This document shows positions 1,205 through 49,008 of a stretch of 64,000 nt of DNA, in pieces. Made by a program: the position numbers and the translations under genes. Within the stretch, counting starts at the first letter, position 1. The number at the start of each line of letters is the position of its first letter. The DNA comes from Cordylochernes scorpioides (taxonomy: Eukaryota > Arthropoda > Arachnida > Pseudoscorpiones > Chernetidae): assembly GCA_030710605.1 (NCBI GenBank), contig CP092875.1:61966394-62030393 (forward strand), read 5' to 3'. The notes beneath the pieces were generated by a model. It was not told where the DNA came from, ran no database searches, and worked only from the letters and a program-made list of their open reading frames with translations.

Positions 1205-1789
1205 ATATCTTTCTATACTGTAGAAAACACAATAAACTTTTAATAATATAGATCAAAAATAAAATAGACAATAAATATTCTCCCCCACTTTAGATATTTC
1301 ACATCTACTATACTAATTTTTATTCTTTTTCTTCTTTCTTATCTCCACTCAATCATATTAGGGTATCTAGCTTGTGAAGCTTGAGATTTTTGATGGTGTC
1401 TGCTTGACAACCATCATTACTGGGTGAAGTAGAATGCGGCTGCCTTTGTCATTAAGACTGGGAGCACTACTCAGTGGCAGGCCGACTTATCTCCAAAGGA
1501 AATGGCCGCCTATGACACGAGGAACAGACCCTATGTGCAGCCGCTCCTAAAATGGAGTACAAACGCTGCTCATCCTGTATCCATGGATCAGGACCCCTTA
1601 CAGGGTACTATCAGCCGGGCCAGCTGAGCCCAGGTTTTTTTAGTAAGCTTGTTACTGCTCCCCCTCCTCCTTTTTCATCCGGGCTTGGGACCGGCAAAGG
1701 CGGAGTTCTAATTTTTATTTGATATTGAAACCGATATAGATAGCATTATTTATAAACTAAACATTTCTACGTGAGATCTGTGCCCATTA
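1205..1789. repeat. Duplicated segment, copy A, first part
   Basis: Nearly identical to about 31465-32046 (copy B), including the block ending gatctgtgcccatta. It is separated from the rest of copy A by the Helitron at 1790-11247. Confidence 0.85.
1325..1709 (-). mobile_element. Dispersed retroposon fragment, copy 1 (unclassified, LINE/SINE-like)
   Basis: One of four copies in the window: 1325-1709 (-), 4337-4630 (+), 25195-25563 (+), 31583-31963 (-). In its own sense it begins gaactccgcctttgccggtc, contains ccctgtaagggctcctaatc, and ends atgattgagtggagataag followed by an A-rich tail. The one-sided A-rich tail suggests retroposition. No ORF or clear pol III boxes were recognised; it may be part of a LINE untranslated region. 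Confidence 0.6.
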
Positions 1790-2116
1790 TCTATATAGAT
1801 AATACCGTAACAGAGTTTTCCATTGTAAAGTCCTGAGCTATCTCCTCCGAAGATTCTGAACTACACATAACGATCTATATACCAAAATTTTCGTTATTTT
1901 TTTCTTCGTATGATAGGCCTGTTTTTATTTTCCTAATGTTAACAGTTATTTTTATTTTTTAATTTAATCTATTTTACAATCGTAGATTTTTTGCATTTAT
2001 CATCATCAATTCCTTTGTTTTGAAATGCGTTCTTTTGTCTTATTACCTTTTACTAATTTATAATATATGTTTGATATATATATATACATTTGATTATGAT
2101 TATAATTTGTAAGTAC

Positions 2117-2760
2117 TTTGTTATAGTTTTTCATTTAAATAGAGCTCAATTTTTGTGTATGTTTTCTATTTGCAGTATCTTTCCTAATGTCTTTGGCAAC
2201 GTTTTTTTTTCTCATAAATAGGCTGAGGTTATATTATTTTTCGAATTGTAGATTGAATTATTACTTTTATTCTATAATAATTATCTTTTATAAGTGTTTG
2301 TTATAGTTTTTCATTTGAATTTAGCACAATTTTTGTATATGGTTCTTTTTTGGCATCTTTTCATCTCTCTTTGGCATCTTTTTTTTTATCATTAATAAGA
2401 CCTGATCCAAATAATTTAATAGTGTGTGACGTTTTTTTTAATTAAATTATTTGGATTAGGTCTTATTTTCTTTTATTAATTTGTTATAATTTTTCATTTG
2501 AATTTAGCTCCATTTTTGTGTCTTTTTTACTTTTTTGCAGTGTCTTTCATAATGCCTGATTTGATTACTTGATCTGTTATAGTTTTCATTTGAATTTAGC
2601 TCCATTTTTGTGTCTGATTTTCTTTTTTGCAGTATCTTTCATAATGCCTGATTTGATTACTTGATCTGTTATAGTTTTTCATTTGAATTTAGCTCTATTT
2701 TTGTGTCTGTCTTTTTTTTTCTTCTCATAAATAGGCTGATGCTGTATTTGTGTACTCAAT
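2117..2760 (+). repeat. Diverged tandem repeat in the Helitron 5' region
   Basis: Units beginning tgttatagtttttcatttgaa recur near 2118, 2298, 2482, 2575 and 2667, about 91-94 bp apart (or twice that). They share tagctccatttttgtgtc and ttttgcagtatctttcataa. The T-rich open frames here are low complexity and not genes. Confidence 0.7.
2394..2467. mobile_element. Small foldback MITE
   Basis: Terminal inverted repeats of about 27 bp (aataagacctgatccaaata and its near-perfect complement) flank agtgtgtgacg. A longer member of the same family lies at 30741-30851. No coding capacity; class not assigned. Confidence 0.65.
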
Positions 2761-2935
2761 TGTTGCTTTTTGTGTCTGGTTTCTTTTTTGCAGTATTTTT
2801 TTGGAATCCTTTTTTTTTCATCAATTGTTTCCTCACATGCTTGGAATTTTCTTTTTATGCCTGTCCTGGCTTTCAATTTTATAGTTTTCCTCTGCTTGGT
2901 TCTTATTTTACCTTTTTTTTTCAGCGTCTTCTGTC

Positions 2936-3025
2936 ATGCCTCGAAAAGGCCGTGGAAGACTGACTCCCCTAACCGCTAGGCGTGCTAATATGACTCGCCG
3001 CAGACACAAAACCCCAATTGCTATT
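2936..3025 (+). pseudogene. Helitron Rep N-terminus remnant
   Basis: An ATG follows a polypyrimidine-AG run (tttttttttcag). It opens about 29 residues, MPRKGRGRLTPL then ARRANMTRRRH, an Arg/Lys-rich start of the kind common in animal Helitron Rep-helicase proteins. Similarity then stops and the frame closes at about 3102. Its position, between the Helitron 5' end and the helicase remnants on the same strand, supports the call. The identification is by motif style, not by alignment. Confidence 0.45.
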
Positions 3026-3149
3026 TCTCTTGTTTACTTTTTTACCAATGCCTATAATTTTTCACCTGAAAGATTTTTTATTTTATTTGTTATTCAATAA
3101 AAACTATTATCACTTATTTTTGGTCTTCTTTTTATTTACTTATTTTACT

Positions 3150-3458
3150 GGGGGTTGGTGGAAGGATGGTCTAAGCCGTTAGTTTTCGACCGCTACGACC
3201 CGGGTTCGATTCCCGCATTGGGCACTTTTTTCTGAAAAAAAAAATGCTCCAATGGCTTCTGATTCTTGCAAAAGTCCAACCCCACCAGCAAGCGCAAGTA
3301 ATCAAACGGGGCTCTGGCACATTTGTACATGCAAAGTCGAACTGCTTTTCACATGTTTAGACATGTGGTGTACTTACAGTAAAAACAGTCGCCTACTCTA
3401 CCCACCATGATTATCAAGGCCTGTACCACGTATACTAGGGATAAGCAAAAAAAAAATA
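3150..3458 (+). mobile_element. tRNA-derived SINE, complete with target duplication
   Basis: The head contains an A-box-like tggtctaagccg and a perfect B box ggttcgattcc (about 3205-3215). A ~200 bp body and an A tail at 3447-3456 follow. A 9-bp direct repeat, tattttact, flanks it at 3141-3149 and 3459-3467. The last ~60 bp recur in reverse at about 51205-51265. A run of six T directly follows the tRNA-like part and could terminate pol III early. The box spacing is too short for a functional tRNA. Confidence 0.75.
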
Positions 3459-3799
3459 TATTTTACTCATTGATCTATACATACAATTATTTGCATACAA
3501 TTATATACATACAGTTTTCTACATTTTTGCGCTCTGCAGTCTAATATGTTGTTAATAATAGGGGTTTTAGACAAATATCAACTGTTGAAATTTGAATTTC
3601 CAAAATAGTTGAATTATCGAAAGTGTCGAATTAGTTTGTCATATGATAGGCCGTAGGTCGAGACATCAAAAATGGTCGAATTATCGTGTGTTGAATTAAT
3701 TAGATTATATTGTATATATAAAAAAATAGAATTGTTGTTTTTAATGAGGTCTTTTAAATGAATTTATTCCTTTAATATGTTGTCATATCTGCAATTTTT

Positions 3800-42171: not shown

Positions 42172-42711
42172 TCAGTATCTCGTTGTGATCTTTTTATTCC
42201 AACAATGTCCCGATTGTGGAAGTCCATATATACTTTTTAACAATTTGCAAACTTTGTCTTCTTCACCTTTTTCAACAAATCCTTCCGGCTGTTTCATAAA
42301 AATAGTTTCCTTCAATTCTCCGTAAAGGTAGGCGGTCTTCACATCATATGATGTTATAACCAAATTCAACTGAGCTGCTAGGGCTACAATTGCACGAAGA
42401 CTTTGTTTTCTGATCACTGGTGAAAATGATTCCTCATATTCTACGCCATATTTCTGATTACAACCAATAGCAACTAATCTAGCTTTTCTTCTATAAACAC
42501 CTTCACCAGGCGCACTCTTTATGCTAAAGATCCATTTGCAGTTTATGATCTTCATATTCTTTTCTCTTTGAACGAGAGTCCATACCTTATGCTTGTTAAT
42601 AGAGTAAAGTTCTTCTTTCATTGCTTCGAGCCATTCATATTTATTCTCGCTGTTAATCGCCTCTTCATAATTTTCGGGAATACGTTCTTCTGGTTCTAAT
42701 ATGAAATTCAC
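42172..42711 (-). pseudogene. Copia reverse transcriptase, N-terminal part
   Basis: Contains EWLEAMKEELYSINKHKVW, KARLVAIGCNQKYGVEY, SFSPVIRKQSLR, SYDVKTAYLYGEL, FMKQPEGF and LLKSIYGLPQSG, all standard Copia RT motifs. It shifts frame at about 42175, right after CWNKKI. Confidence 0.9.
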
Positions 42712-42891
42712 GTTATTTCTTTCTTTTATTCTTTGCGAACGTCGAACGCCTTATTCAAGCAATTTCATTTCTCCTTCTCTCAGTTTTGCTCTGTTTTTCC
42801 TCTAAAACCTTTTGTGCATCTCCCTTTTTGCGACCTGACCTTACAATTCTTTCCTCGTTAGGTTCGTCTAGCGTGGGAATCGTTTCTTCAT

Positions 42892-43976
42892 TTAGTTCTG
42901 AGGTTTCTGGACGCGTCCAAGGTCGATTTCAATATCATTTTTCTCTTCCTTTTTATATGCAAAATGGTCGTAATTTGTGTCTTCTTGAAGATTTTTTGCA
43001 TAATCAATTCCTTTCTCATTTTCGACAAATTTTACTAATCTTACTTCTTCTATTTTCTTAGTGATTATGTCATACACTTGATAAGCCTTTCTTTTCAGAG
43101 AATAGCCTACAAAAATACCTTTTCGACTTTTAGGCATAAATTTACTTCTATGTTGTTGTGTAATGGGCCAAAACGCCAAACAACCGAATATTCTGAAATA
43201 TCGAATGGAGGGTTTTCTTCCTTTCAATTTCTCCATTGGTGTATCAAGCTTGATTGACCTATGTGGAGTACAGTTTTTGACATATGATGCAGTAGCGACT
43301 GCCTCCGCCCAGAAAGCCATGGGTAATCCTGAATCAAACAATAATGTCCTTGCTGTTTCAATTAGGGTTCGGTTTACTCTCTCCGCAACTCCGTTACTTT
43401 GTGGCGAGTAGGTGGTGGAGAGTTGGTGGTGTAATCCATTTTTAATTAAGAAATTCTTGAATCTGTGAATAGTGAACTCTGTGCCATTATCAGTTCGCAC
43501 ATCCTTTATTTTCAAGTTTAGCTCATTTTCCACTCTTGCCTTAAATTCTTCAAACTTCCCCAAAGTTTCATCTTTGTTTTTCAGAAAGTAGACAAAGGTT
43601 CTTCGGCTGAAATCATCAACCAGAACAAAAAAGTATTTTGATCCACCTAGAGATTGGTATGGCATTGGACCACATAAATCCATATGCACCAATTCAAGGG
43701 GTTTGGTTGTACAGTTGGTGGTAACGGGATGGTAAGGTTGTCGAGTCAATTTCCCCATTATACAAGCTTCAATTTCTGGCAAGAGTTCTTCAATATAACA
43801 TTAAACCCCAATACCACATTCCGTTGAATTATCTCTTTCATGTACGCTTCGTTCAAATGATTCAGTCTTCTATGCCACAAGCTGATATTGTTATTTGAGA
43901 ATTCATCTTTTGTGGTCATGACATTCTCCGTCTTTTCCGAGTATTCATCTCTGGACCTTGTTTCCATTACATACAT
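42892..43976 (-). pseudogene. Copia integrase with pre-integrase zinc segment (frameshifted)
   Basis: The segment from 43976 has LWHRRLNHLNEAYM, the HHCC-type pre-integrase region. A shift near 43790 leads to the catalytic core: HMDLCGPM (Asp), VRTDNGTEFT (Asp) and NGVAERVNRTL (Glu), followed by GCLAFWPI and KGIFVGYSLKRKAYQVY. The frame closes at 42892 before RT. The upstream end is the insertion point of the inner LTR element. Confidence 0.9.
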
Positions 43977-43978
43977 AT

Positions 43979-44447
43979 TGTGGCATGCATGGCCTTAGAA
44001 GAATAGTTCTAAAGGTGGCCAATAGGTGGCGCCATGAAGTTATGCGGCGTTTCTCTCTCTTGGCTCTGTTGTTGGTCCTGTTCCTTCGCCATCCCCTGTG
44101 GTGGATGGTTCTGTGTGTGATTCCTCCTCCGGCCTCATCCTGCCACCTCTGTTGTGTAAAGTACTGGTTGTGTGATATTGCGACCATTTATAGATGTAGA
44201 TAAAATGTTTTAATAAACAGCTTGTTCTTCGGCGTTGTGCGGTCGTGACTCTCTTCCCGACAACACATTGCTGCGCCTCTGGTCAGTCCTGACTGTCCCC
44301 CCACCCGTGGTATGGCTGACGGATACTGTCAGAGGTTAGGAGAGTTTCACGTGTTGGCGTGGCTCCCAGGTGGTAGTGTAAGAAAGACAAACGGTCCAAG
44401 GGGTCAGCCACAGTAAGGAAGCGTTGCGAAAGGTCGAGCACGCAACA
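43979..44447 (+). repeat. 5' LTR of the myosin-carrying element
   Basis: TGTGGCATGCATGGCC ... GAGCACGCAACA. aataaacagcttgttcttcg at about 44212 suggests the poly(A) signal and R region. Confidence 0.93.
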
Positions 44448-44449
44448 TT

Positions 44450-44467
44450 TGGTGTCAGAAGTGGGAT
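44450..44467 (+). promoter_or_regulatory. Primer-binding site (tRNA-Leu-like)
   Basis: TGGTGTCAGAAGTGGGAT complements the typical tRNA-Leu 3' end (CCCACTTCTGACACCA), two bases after the LTR. Confidence 0.8.
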
Positions 44468-44553
44468 CCTTATTAGTGGACTGACCGGCAGTATCTGGTG
44501 GAGAGTCGGGTTTGAGGCTCTGGAGGGAACCAGATAGTTGCCGCCTTGGTTGT

Positions 44554-47079
44554 ATGCCTGTGGAGACCAGAGGACAGAAAATGGCCTCAGAAGAACTTTT
44601 GAAGCAGTTCATGAGCCTTTGGAAGCAAGAAAAGGAGCAAGAAAAGGAGGAGAAGCTGAAGCGAAGAGAAGAAAAGGAGAAGCTGAAGCGTGGAAAGGAG
44701 GAGGAAGAGCGGAGACGAGAACAAGAGAGGGAGGAGAAGCTGAAGCGTGAAAAGGAGGAGGAAGAGCGGAGACGAGAACAAGAAAAGGAGGAGAAGCTGA
44801 AGCGAAGAAAAGAAAAAGAGGAGAAGCTGAAGCGTGAAAAGGAGGAGGAAGAGCGGAGACGAGAACAAGAGAAGGAAGAGAAGCTGAGGCGAAGAGAGGA
44901 AAAATGGGCCAAAATGCTGTCGAGGATAGGGGTGGAAGCACAGGGCCAGCACAAGGATGTGGACAAGAGGATCAAGAGCCTGGAGTCCGAGGTGATTGCC
45001 CTGCAGGAGGAACCGAGCACAGCAGAGCGTGCGAGACGCAGCGCAGAGGTAGAGAGAGACGACCTGGCAGAAGAGGCCAACAGCAAGGCAAGTCGTGTGA
45101 CCATGCTCCAGGATGACAAGCGCAGGCTGGAGAACGCCGGGTCCCTGCTGGAGGGTCAGGCCAAGGCGGAGGGGCTGGCGGAGAGGGCCCATCGCGCCCA
45201 GAGCTCCGTGGACCTGCTCACCACAGAGGTGGCAGCAGAGAGAGCCTCCTGCGGGAAGCTGGAGAACGCCGGGTCCCTGCTGGAGGGACAGGCCAAGGCG
45301 GAGGGGCTGGCGGAGAGGGCCCATCGCGCCCAGAGTTCCGTGGACCTGCTCACCACAGAGGTGGCAGCAGAGAGAGCCTCCTGCCAGAAGCTGGAGAACG
45401 CCGGGTCCCTGCTGGAGGGACAGGGCAAGGAGCTGCGGGCCAAGCTGCAAGAGCGGGAGACCTCTCAGAGAGCCCGTACCAAGGCCACCATTGCCAGCCT
45501 AGAGAGCCAGACCTGCCAGCTGGAGGAACAGCTGGAGGCGGAGGGCAAGGAGCTGCGGGCCAAGCTGCAAGAGCGGGAGACCTCTCAGAGAGCCCGTACC
45601 AAGGCCACCATTGCCGGCCTAGAGAGCCAGACCTGCCAGCTGGAGGAACAGCTGGAGGCGGAGGGCAAGGAGCTGCGGGCCAAGCTGCAAGAGCGGGAGA
45701 CCTCTCAGAGAGCCCGTACCAAGGCCACCATTGCCGGCCTAGAGAGCCAGACCTGCCAGCTGGAGGAACAGCTGGAGGCGGAGGGCAAGGAGCTGCGGGC
45801 CAAGCTGCAAGAGCGGGAGACCTCTCAGAGAGCCCGTACCAAGGCCACCATTGCCGGCCTAGAGAGCCAGACCTGCCAGCTGGAGGAACAGCTGGAGGCG
45901 GAGAGCAAGGAGCTGCGGGCCAAGCTGCAAGAGCGGGAGACCTCTCAGAGAGCCCGTACCAAGGCCACCATTGCCGGCCTAGAGAGCCAGACCTGCCAGC
46001 TGGAGGAACAGCTGGAGGCGGAGGGCAAGGAGAGACAAGCTCTCGCCAAGGCCAACAGGAAGCTGGACAAGAAGGTCAAGGAGATGTCCATGCAGCTGGA
46101 GGAACAGCTGGAGGCGGAGGGCAAGGAGAGACAAGCTCTCGCCAAGGCCAACAGGAAGCTGGACAAGAAGGTCAAGGAGATGTCCATGCAGCTGGAGGAA
46201 CAGCTGGAGGCGGAGGGCAAGGAGAGACAAGCTCTCGCCAAGGCCAACAGGAAGCTGGACAAGAAGGTCGAGGAGATGTCCATGCAGCTGGAGGAACAGC
46301 TGGAGGCGGAGGGCAAGGAGAGACAAGCTCTCGCCAAGGCCAACAGGAAGCTGGACAAGAAGGTCAAGGAGATGTCCATGCAGCTGGAGGATGAACACAG
46401 GCAGGCAGAACATTACAAGGGAAAAGATCATGATGCAAATGAAGCGAAAAATATGGATGAAGTACATTGTACTGATTTAAGGGTGGAAGAAAAGCTAGAT
46501 GTAGAACAGGGTACTGATTTAGAGGTAGAAGAAAACCTAGATGCAGAACAAGGTACTGAATCAAAGGTGGAAGGAGAGATTGTTGATCCAAAAGATTGGT
46601 TGAAGGAGGGGCTCGTCGAAAGAGTTGATGAAATTCCACCTGAGGGAAAAGGATACTGGTTTCCTGATCGCCTTGTATTTGGGTGTGAGTCCGAAACGAC
46701 GCCTATAAGGCCAGTATTTGACGACGCTTCCTGTCGAGGAAACTGCGGACTTGCCTTGAGGCGGTACTTGAGGAGGAGACCCAGTCTGCAGAGAAGAATA
46801 CCTGAAATAAGGATAGAACTTCGGAAGAATAAGCTCGGAGTTTTGGCCGACCTGAAAAGATATTTCCGGATGATGGCCATTAAGAACAATGCTTGGGACT
46901 ACCTCAGATTTCTGTGGAAGAAAAAGATGGACAACGATGGAATGGTGGAAAGGTTCGGAGGCAAAACCAAGGGTCGTCCATTTGAGCCGGTTGGCACTCT
47001 TCCAGGGAGAGCAATCAGAGTGGACCTGATCGGGACGATCAGGTTTGATTGGGGGGCAGTGTGGCATGCATGGCCTTAG
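44554..47079 (+). CDS. Chimeric ORF: Gag-like start, amplified non-muscle myosin II tail, Pao RT fragment
   Basis: An unbroken 841-residue frame from the first ATG (44554; a second ATG at 44581 is also plausible). Residues ~10-130: Gag-like MASEELLKQFMSLWKQEKE, then Lys/Glu/Arg-rich helix. Residues ~140-632 are collinear with the non-muscle myosin II heavy-chain rod: IKSLESEVIALQEE, ERARRSAEVERDDLAEEA, DDKRRLE, DLLTTEVAAERAS, GKELRAKLQE, KATIASLES, CQLEEQLEAEGKERQA, KKVKEMSMQLEDE, QAEHYK. Within it, units of 44 aa (about 2.3 copies), 40 aa (5) and 32 aa (4) are repeated. An acidic repeat follows, then RT-like YWFPDRLVFGC, TTPIRPVFDDAS, KNKLGVLADLK and DYLRFLWKK (~695-798), a Pao RT fragment lacking the catalytic YxDD box. 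The stop lies inside the 3' LTR. The myosin identity is from recall of the family; function is unknown. Confidence 0.85.
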   Translation: MPVETRGQKMASEELLKQFMSLWKQEKEQEKEEKLKRREEKEKLKRGKEEEERRREQEREEKLKREKEEEERRREQEKEEKLKRRKEKEEKLKREKEEEERRREQEKEEKLRRREEKWAKMLSRIGVEAQGQHKDVDKRIKSLESEVIALQEEPSTAERARRSAEVERDDLAEEANSKASRVTMLQDDKRRLENAGSLLEGQAKAEGLAERAHRAQSSVDLLTTEVAAERASCGKLENAGSLLEGQAKAEGLAERAHRAQSSVDLLTTEVAAERASCQKLENAGSLLEGQGKELRAKLQERETSQRARTKATIASLESQTCQLEEQLEAEGKELRAKLQERETSQRARTKATIAGLESQTCQLEEQLEAEGKELRAKLQERETSQRARTKATIAGLESQTCQLEEQLEAEGKELRAKLQERETSQRARTKATIAGLESQTCQLEEQLEAESKELRAKLQERETSQRARTKATIAGLESQTCQLEEQLEAEGKERQALAKANRKLDKKVKEMSMQLEEQLEAEGKERQALAKANRKLDKKVKEMSMQLEEQLEAEGKERQALAKANRKLDKKVEEMSMQLEEQLEAEGKERQALAKANRKLDKKVKEMSMQLEDEHRQAEHYKGKDHDANEAKNMDEVHCTDLRVEEKLDVEQGTDLEVEENLDAEQGTESKVEGEIVDPKDWLKEGLVERVDEIPPEGKGYWFPDRLVFGCESETTPIRPVFDDASCRGNCGLALRRYLRRRPSLQRRIPEIRIELRKNKLGVLADLKRYFRMMAIKNNAWDYLRFLWKKKMDNDGMVERFGGKTKGRPFEPVGTLPGRAIRVDLIGTIRFDWGAVWHAWP
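45118..46395 (+). repeat. In-frame tandem repeats inside the myosin-derived segment
   Basis: 132-bp units from 45127, 45259 and 45391 (ctggagaacgccgggtccct); 120-bp units from 45425, 45545, 45665, 45785 and 45905 (aaggagctgcgggccaagct); 96-bp units from 46025, 46121, 46217 and 46313 (gcaaggagagacaagctctc). All periods are multiples of three, so the frame is kept. Units are nearly identical. Confidence 0.95.
47051..47059 (+). promoter_or_regulatory. Polypurine tract of the myosin-carrying element
   Basis: ggggggcag immediately before LTR2. Confidence 0.65.
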
Positions 47080-47528
47080 AAGAATAGTTCTAAAGGTGGC
47101 CAATAGGTGGCGCCATGAAGTTATGCGGCGTTTCTCTCTCTTGGCTCTGTTGTTGGTCCTGTTCCTTCGCCATCCCCTGTGGTGGATGGTTCTGTGTGTG
47201 ATTCCTCCTCCGGCCTCATCCTGCCACCTCTGTTGTGTAAAGTACTGGTTGTGTGATATTGCGACCATTTATAGATGTAGATAAAATGTTTTAATAAACA
47301 GCTTGTTCTTCGGCGTTGTGCGGTCGTGACTCTCTTCCCGACAACACATTGCTGCGCCTCTGGTCAGTCCTGACTGTCCCCCCACCCGTGGTAAGGCTGA
47401 CGGATACTGTCAGAGGTTAGGAGAGTTTCACGTGTTGGCGTGGCTCCCAGGTAGTAGTGTAAGAAAGACAAACGGTCCAAGGGGTCAGCCACAGTAAGGA
47501 AGCGTTGCGAAAGGTCGAGCACGCAACA
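47060..47528 (+). repeat. 3' LTR of the myosin-carrying element
   Basis: Differs from LTR1 by about two substitutions (gtggtaagg for gtggtatgg; caggtagtag for caggtggtag). Confidence 0.93.
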
Positions 47529-47532
47529 ATAT

Positions 47533-48775
47533 TATCCTGGATTTGAGCCTCTGCAATTAAATCATCCTGTTCATTGTAAATCTTTGCTCCATCTCTATTG
47601 AAAATAACAGTATTTCCTTTGTTAGTTAATTCGTATATTGATAAAATATTAGACCTTAAGTTAGGTACATGCAGAACTACTTTAATTTGAACATTATCAA
47701 TTTCGTTTTCGGTACAAGTAAAAACCTTGATATCACCTTTAGCTGTAGCATGTGTAACTTTACCTTCTTCTGCCAAATTTATCTCACTTTCATAAGGCAT
47801 TACATTTTCCATCCAGTCCAAGTGTGGAGATAAGTGCGTAGTACACCCTGAGTCAAAACACCAGGTTTGTATCTGACTATAATTATTTGAGGAGTTTTCA
47901 AAATCTCGATCTCTGCTGGTATTGAAAGTTTGTTCCGCAGGCTTGCTTGAGACGGTATTCGCATTATTTCTGAAATTTTGTTTGTTATAGTTCGTATTTG
48001 AATATGCATTTCTTCTCCCATGTTGTTCTTGAGTTCGCTTATTTTTGAACCAGCAACCTTTAGCTAAATGTCCTTTTTTATGGCAAACAAAACACTCCTT
48101 TTGTCGGTTCTGTTGATAGTGATTTCTTCTGTCTTTACTTCTGTAAGCCTGTTCATTTTCATCAGAATGACTCACATTCATCTTAGAATTCATTCGGTTC
48201 TCTTCCTCTCCAAGTGACTGCCGAATTTCCTCAAGAGTTAATTCTCTTCTAGTTCTCAGTACAACAGCGATCTTTTCCAATCTTGGATGGATACCTCGCA
48301 CAATATGAAACGCTAGTTCTCTTTGGGATATTTGGTGTCCGAGTGAAGAACTTTGAGAGGCAATATTTTTGGCTCTAGCCATATATTCGTTTATGGATTC
48401 ATTATTTTTCATCTTGATATTCTTAAGTTCAAGCCCAATATCAATGATCTTATCTTCTAGGTTGCCCGTGTAGATTTTCTTTAATTCATCCCATACTTTC
48501 TTTGCTTTAGTTTCATCTAGAAACATTCCTGCTTGTTCATCTGATAGAGTTGTAACTATAATTCCAAAGGCTTCGTCATTCTTTTCACTCCATATTTGCC
48601 AGGCGACTTCATCTTTCATATCAGGCTCGGGATCCGAAATTACGCATTTAAATAATTTCTTTCCGCGTAAAAGTGCTCCGACTCTTAAAGCCCAAATCGG
48701 ATAATTTGTTCCTGTTAAAGGTTCAATTTTTGTCGTTGGCGAAAAATTGCAATCCATTTTAGCCTTGTTTTTCAA
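47533..48775 (-). pseudogene. Copia Gag and protease (3' end cut off by the LTR insertion)
   Basis: ATG at 48775 (a second, MDCNFSP, six codons on). The Gag segment has LTGTNYPIWALRVGALLRG, VWDELKKIYTG and INEYMARAKNIAS, followed by a zinc knuckle CFVCHKKGHLAKGC (about 48050-48095) and protease WCFDSGCTTHL (about 47840). LHVPNLRSNILSIYEL is the usual sequence after protease. The frame is open until the insertion at 47528 and continues in sense at 43976. Confidence 0.92.
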
Positions 48776-49008
48776 CTTTTAAAAATTAAACAATATAGTT
48801 TAAAGGTAGTTTATAATTCAAAAATGTTTTTTTTTCAATCCTTCTATTTAAAACTTTCTTTTATCAATATAATTCAAATTCTATTGAAACATATTTCAAA
48901 ATTTACATACGTTGATGAAGAAGAGATCTTTGTTTACCGATTAGAATAAACGTATCAAACTTCTGATAAAATATTTTCGCTTTTTCTCAAGTTTTAAATT
49001 GAACCACG

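Follow-up and report, generated by a model that had tools for sequence, protein, structure and literature searches.

A myosin II tail in LTR retrotransposons of the pseudoscorpion Cordylochernes scorpioides: probable relay of a host gene segment from a BEL/Pao-type to a Ty3/gypsy-type element

Long terminal repeat (LTR) retrotransposons that capture host mRNA through template switching are known in metazoans and in plants, according to the available portions of PMC5408686 and PMC13317346. In the LTR-mediated retroposition that Tan et al. (2016, Genome Res, as cited in the available portion of PMC5408686) described for metazoans, host mRNA is joined to an LTR element at microsimilarities and ends up flanked by LTRs. 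The maize element Bs1 is an LTR element with transduced host-gene segments and a hybrid frame (available portions of PMC13317346 and PMC5408686), and in crocodilians the endogenous retroviruses CrocERV29 and CrocERV31 have captured KIT-ligand and nectin3 (available portion of PMC4299795). Here we describe an LTR element at positions 43979–47528 of a 64,000-nucleotide (nt) stretch of the genome of Cordylochernes scorpioides (contig CP092875.1, 61,966,394–62,030,393, forward strand), which we call the window. The element is young and has one open frame, in which a piece of Gag is followed by part of the tail of a host non-muscle myosin II. Comparison of the copies makes it highly probable that the tail arrived by relay: a BEL/Pao-type element would have captured the myosin mRNA, and a Ty3/gypsy-type element would have acquired the segment from it. 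Tandem expansion and recent insertions followed.

Acute transforming retroviruses are elements in which captured cellular sequence is fused to Gag and the defective element is helped in trans. The window element is like them in its cellular capture, its Gag fusion and, presumably, its need for a helper, but those retroviruses are infectious, whereas the present element yielded no env and is without a demonstrated function. Capture of onc sequences by these viruses is named in the available text of PMC6431247. Compared with metazoan LTR-mediated retroposition (available text of PMC5408686), the cargo here would have moved on to a second LTR superfamily; it was also tandemly expanded and is found at about 63 loci. 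Bs1 differs in being a plant element with three host genes, for which the available text of PMC13317346 and PMC5408686 describes no relay between superfamilies, and the crocodilian cases (available text of PMC4299795) are endogenous retroviruses with one group per captured gene. Large retrotransposon derivatives and BARE-2 with its Wis-2 segment share the foreign interior of a non-autonomous LTR element and the origin of two-family chimeras by template switching, but the accessible parts of PMC6431247 and PMC13317346 describe no host coding segment passed between families. Among open-licence papers we found no report of a host segment handed between BEL/Pao and Ty3/gypsy elements, nor any paper on the present system. 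A first-pass annotation of the window had called gene transduction by LTR elements rarely documented in animals; this is fair, but the case is not unique, as both metazoan LTR-mediated retrocopies and endogenous retrovirus captures have been published.

The LTRs are 469 nt each (5' LTR, TGTGG...CAACA, 43979–44447; 3' LTR, 47060–47528), differ at two positions, and are flanked by a target-site duplication, ATAT, identified by LTR and duplication comparison (43975–43978 and 47529–47532, unstranded); the features of the element itself are on the plus strand. The frame is open from 44485 to a stop at 47077–47079 within the 3' LTR, 864 codons from stop to stop, with ATG codons at 44554 and 44581. 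From the second of these it encodes the N-terminal coiled coil of a Ty3/gypsy Gag (44581–44936), passes into myosin at a junction at 44933–44937, and runs through the captured tail of non-muscle type (44937–46419). There follow a BEL/Pao-derived segment of acidic 42-nt repeats and the start of a reverse transcriptase (RT) domain, with a counterpart in elements with Pao LTRs (46420–46935), a scrap of gypsy integrase coding sequence (46936–46956, with 14 identical nt at 46939–46952), and the 3' end of a gypsy internal region, with a purine tract adjoining the LTR (46961–47059). A putative primer binding site, TGGTGTCAGAAGTGGGAT (44450–44467), was recognized by its sequence and recurs in other gypsy copies, in two of them with single changes; we take it to resemble tRNA-Leu. 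No tRNA genes were found within the window. Because RT is present in the frame only as the Pao fragment and integrase only as the 14-nt match, the element lacks an RT and integrase of its own and is a non-autonomous Ty3/gypsy-type LTR retrotransposon. The first-pass annotation had seen the near-identical LTRs around one unbroken frame, the polypurine tract and the 4-bp duplication correctly. Its Gag-like upstream part is indeed gypsy Gag, but merely the N-terminal coiled coil, and its downstream Pao RT comprises just a short stretch from the start of the RT domain.

When the middle part of the frame was searched against the PDB, six sequences matched with E values no higher than 0.001. Five are heavy chains of myosin II, and the sixth is a chimera that includes a piece of MYH7. 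Human myosin-10, the best match (6.8e-16), aligned in two collinear stretches, and the Pfam match to Myosin_tail_1 reached 9.5e-69. The annotation had taken about 490 residues to follow the myosin II rod in order; the identity is right, but only about 200 residues are involved, expanded to about 490 by tandem duplications with units of 132 nt (45126–45430, 2.3 copies), 120 nt (45411–46032, 5.2 copies) and 96 nt (45997–46391, 4.1 copies). The N-terminus of the Gag is itself charged and coiled-coil-like, as would suit an ordinary Gag with generic coiled-coil similarity. This explanation is refuted by the 96–98% DNA identity between unexpanded cargo and the spliced exons of host myosin, and its probability is negligible. 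Measured against the host's own myosin gene, the unexpanded relatives of the cargo are 96–97.5% identical.

The parental gene, a myosin II of non-muscle type that the annotation had suggested should exist, was found in the host genome (2.62 Gb, 24 contigs) at C18:52.73 Mb (G000:C18:52729000–52733000). It has GT-AG introns, which in the stretch used for comparison (L059) lie at 1606–1668, 1831–2010 and 2562–2617, with a fourth starting at 2728. The parental tail is present twice, in inverted orientation and about 27 kb apart (G000:C18:52730491–52732509 and 52757952–52759783); the exon structure was read from the first copy, L059, alone. As the first-pass annotation had noted, the captured part is intron-free and GC-rich in AT-rich surroundings: its GC content is 0.63, and those of the two flanks are 0.37 and 0.32.

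Eight myosin-bearing loci (L029, L030, L031, L032, L039, L051, L056 and L057) lack the window LTR in the fetched part and start with a different Gag-like sequence. Their Pao-type LTR pairs measure 657 to 944 nt where both ends are available, and equal 5-bp duplications (ATGGT, GTAAT, GAGAG and CTGTG) were present in all four loci with both ends, out of six inspected. A target duplication of about 5 bp is the norm for BEL/Pao elements. L030 and L039, and likewise L056 and L057, are near-identical pairs including their flanks, and may be duplicated regions. When the joined parental exons (817 nt, including two exon joins) were aligned to these loci, the alignments with L031 (97.9%) and L030 (97.8%) were free of gaps, and those with L029 and L032 contained 12 and 9 gap letters, respectively; the third parental intron is missing from L029 and L031. 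In L029 the parental blocks appear in the order 3325–3371, then 1060–1160, then 1578 onward (1578–1605 to the exon end; L059 coordinates), and the frames of L031, L032, L051 and L056 have the same block order. The internal joins of L029 have overlaps of 2 and 9 nt, for which no chance expectation was computed; outer joins were compared in part.

Such a block order cannot be produced by plain splicing, and template switching can produce it. Spliced cargo would also be expected if a processed pseudogene, that is, a retrocopy of the long interspersed element (LINE) type, had formed first and a Pao element had picked up the myosin from genomic DNA. However, the cargo ends inside the coding region, and the order of its blocks is changed, with a later exon upstream and short overlaps where blocks meet, which fits repeated template switching better; in addition, no free retrocopy was noticed in the two match lists (68 candidates scored out of 11580 in one, 101 out of 592 in the other). 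We therefore regard the pseudogene route as unlikely, and capture of spliced host myosin mRNA by a BEL/Pao-type element, as the first part of the highly probable two-step reading, as the preferred account. The capture through RNA put forward in the first-pass annotation thus holds for a spliced myosin II tail derived from mRNA, but the direct captor was most likely a BEL/Pao-type element and not the gypsy element of the window.

PF05380 or PF18701 is found in some of the gene models related to the Pao RT fragment, and the fragment is 33% identical over 102 residues (2e-12 against a single sequence) to a different stretch of RT in P0017, a protein with DUF5641. Two annotated proteins, P0018 and P0025, contain the same Pao stretch without myosin. 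Six further Pao-like relatives, L060–L065, are free of myosin and have long arrays of a 42-nt acidic repeat, GTDSKVEEKLDVEQ. Captures of other host genes by the Pao family were suspected from relatives named MDM4, MAP4K1 and CUL1, and are not claimed: MAP4K1 had no kinase domain match, and CUL1 and MDM4, whose host domains follow the element part on its downstream side, resemble fusions made in gene modelling.

The second carrier is defined by the window LTR, which gave at least 41 matches (40 of 566 candidates scored). Among 20 fetched LTR regions, L013 and L027 are of autonomous type, with the same LTRs and ends, about 5 kb of internal sequence and no myosin. L013 encodes a CCHC Gag, protease, RT, RNase H and integrase, in that order. 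The order from protease to integrase does not by itself separate gypsy from BEL elements; the gypsy label follows from the Pfam set of L013 and from the NCBI name, K02A2.6-like, of P0001. The window element is 93.8% identical to L013 over the first 489 internal nt, which include the Gag segment, and 98.1% over the last 107 nt (99 of 99 positions in 46961–47059); between these ends the only further placeable match is the 14-nt integrase scrap. In the unexpanded gypsy copies L033, L034, L038 and L048, myosin is followed by Pao RT, Pao 3' non-coding sequence and then the gypsy end. That Pao RT and Pao non-coding sequence are contiguous with myosin in these copies suggests that the block came from a Pao–myosin RNA, and a second recombination, in which a gypsy element gained the myosin block together with Pao sequence, would explain the gypsy Gag on one side of the cargo and the Pao RT on the other. 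In another copy with gypsy LTRs and myosin, L050 (reverse strand, C14:76.97 Mb; open reading frame 1408–3564 as oriented), a long arginine-rich repeat frame replaces the Pao RT fragment. The annotated protein P0022, on a contig of 99553051 bases, has gypsy Gag, Pao acidic repeats and the RT fragment without myosin, and its 3' joint is nearly that of the window copy; it may be either a further recombinant or an intermediate.

Substitutions were compared over a 197-nt unique part of the cargo in 44 element copies (38 gypsy and 6 Pao; three short rows were dropped). Relative to the parent, 16T>A and 158C>T are present in all 44 copies, 137G>A in 37 of 38 gypsy and none of six Pao copies, and 79T>C in 35 of 38 gypsy and, again, none of six Pao copies. 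Gypsy and Pao copies have fixed differences at two sites, and at both the parent has the Pao state. The ten unexpanded copies share nine fixed differences from the parent, six of them synonymous. In a tree of 16 rows, the 11 gypsy rows fell on one side of a branch with support of 90/92. Carriage of the cargo by two different LTR families might suggest independent captures, one by each; this is very improbable given the substitutions common to all 44 copies, the shared myosin join on the 3' side, and the Pao sequence that runs on contiguously in gypsy copies. A single capture followed by transfer remains the preferred reading.

Several observations weigh against the relay as described. The tree bootstrap is unsettled, with one of 13 inner branches starred and eight open. 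L020 lacks 137G>A and three of the 38 gypsy copies lack 79T>C, exceptions that imply recombination between copies or mixing of lineages. A 3' joint unlike that of the unexpanded copies is found in L010, L026 and the copy in the window, which calls for one more exchange or several. The RT fragment owes its Pao label to its relatives and not to a direct Pfam match, and Pfam gave no match for either the window fragment or L060. An empty, myosin-free Pao site was seen at the protein level only, in the two annotated proteins; in DNA it was not found among the six fetched loci L060–L065, which are another sub-variant without that site. Finally, the frames of L013 and L027 are both interrupted, that of L013 in Gag, and a working helper is not among the copies examined.

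From these comparisons we propose the following sequence of events. A BEL/Pao-type element would have taken up spliced myosin mRNA, its blocks being reordered at short overlaps by switches during reverse transcription, presumably in particles that had packaged the mRNA. A gypsy element would then have gained the myosin block with flanking Pao sequence, probably through a switch in particles containing Pao–myosin RNA. Tandem duplications lengthened the tail from about 200 to about 490 residues, and autonomous gypsy relatives with the same LTRs may have supplied proteins in trans.

Whether the fusion does anything for the element was considered from its reading frame and its codons. In 28 of 39 gypsy-type myosin loci the frame that starts at the Gag ATG stays open for 400 codons or longer, and the duplication periods of expanded copies, 240, 132, 120 and 96 nt, are multiples of three (L055 gives 95), as are 143 of 145 periods reported by Tandem Repeats Finder, many of these entries being non-cargo or non-independent. 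Pooled pairwise ratios of non-synonymous to synonymous change (dN/dS) were 0.64 within gypsy and 0.52 within Pao copies, the pairs being non-independent, and 0.25 from parent to elements, a value that includes the parent's own constraint. The open frames, the periods of the cargo duplications and the ratios within elements would suit a working Gag–myosin protein, retained because Gag gains filament binding or assembly by coiled coil from the rod. Against this, the change counts are near chance: ten cargo copies gave 12 synonymous, 24 non-synonymous and one stop change (chance fractions 0.22, 0.73 and 0.05; P=0.11), and the unique part of 36 gypsy copies gave 9, 28 and 1 (P=0.45). The codon tests thus detected no selection on the cargo, with few changes and low power. 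Moreover, the open frames may merely reflect youth, and none of the repeat units (44, 40 and 32 residues) is a multiple of seven in length. We consider a working fusion improbable, and infer that the cargo is a passenger in a Gag–myosin–RT protein without a needed function. A wider proposal holds that the LTR superfamilies within an animal recombine as a common pool, through which captured host exons pass between families, and that the Gag–myosin product helps the element, for example by strengthening Gag assembly, with the result that the rod stayed in frame and was repeatedly lengthened; this we regard as unlikely.

Clustering of the two match lists placed the cargo at about 63 loci on 21 of the 24 contigs among the scored candidates, compared with the single copy seen in the first-pass annotation, which had expected others. 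Of these loci, 47 were read and 16 were not; one of the latter (C5:24.75 Mb) is represented by short matches only. Two full LTRs are kept at 27 of the 39 gypsy-type myosin loci, all 27 with equal 4-bp duplications (ATAT in 22) and 11 with identical LTRs, the loci having been chosen by search rank, which over-represents the young end. These sequences show that copies were inserted recently.

The window copy lies within another element on the minus strand (42172–48778), which we take to be Copia from its motifs, with long open frames on either side of the insertion: the downstream part at 42172–43978 and the Gag side at 47533–48778. Excising the inserted element with one ATAT restores a Copia frame without interruption, which is evidence against a join made in assembly; together with the target duplication and the further copies elsewhere, it led us to drop an assembly chimera as an explanation.

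In the public annotation, the retroelement chimeras P0003, P0023, P0028 and P0002 bear the host-like names MYH11, MYH9, CUL1 and Transposase. Chimeras annotated as host genes may mislead gene counts and orthology sets that include C. scorpioides. Gene capture by LTR elements has often been inferred from isolated copies; here a single genome contains the parent, both carriers, copies with and without the expansion, and defective elements related to the likely helper, and in it the joins can be read to within a few bases. If a host segment did pass from BEL/Pao-type to Ty3/gypsy-type elements, it would follow that RNAs of separate superfamilies come together while reverse transcription is under way, and the rates and rules of switching between superfamilies would thereby become testable.

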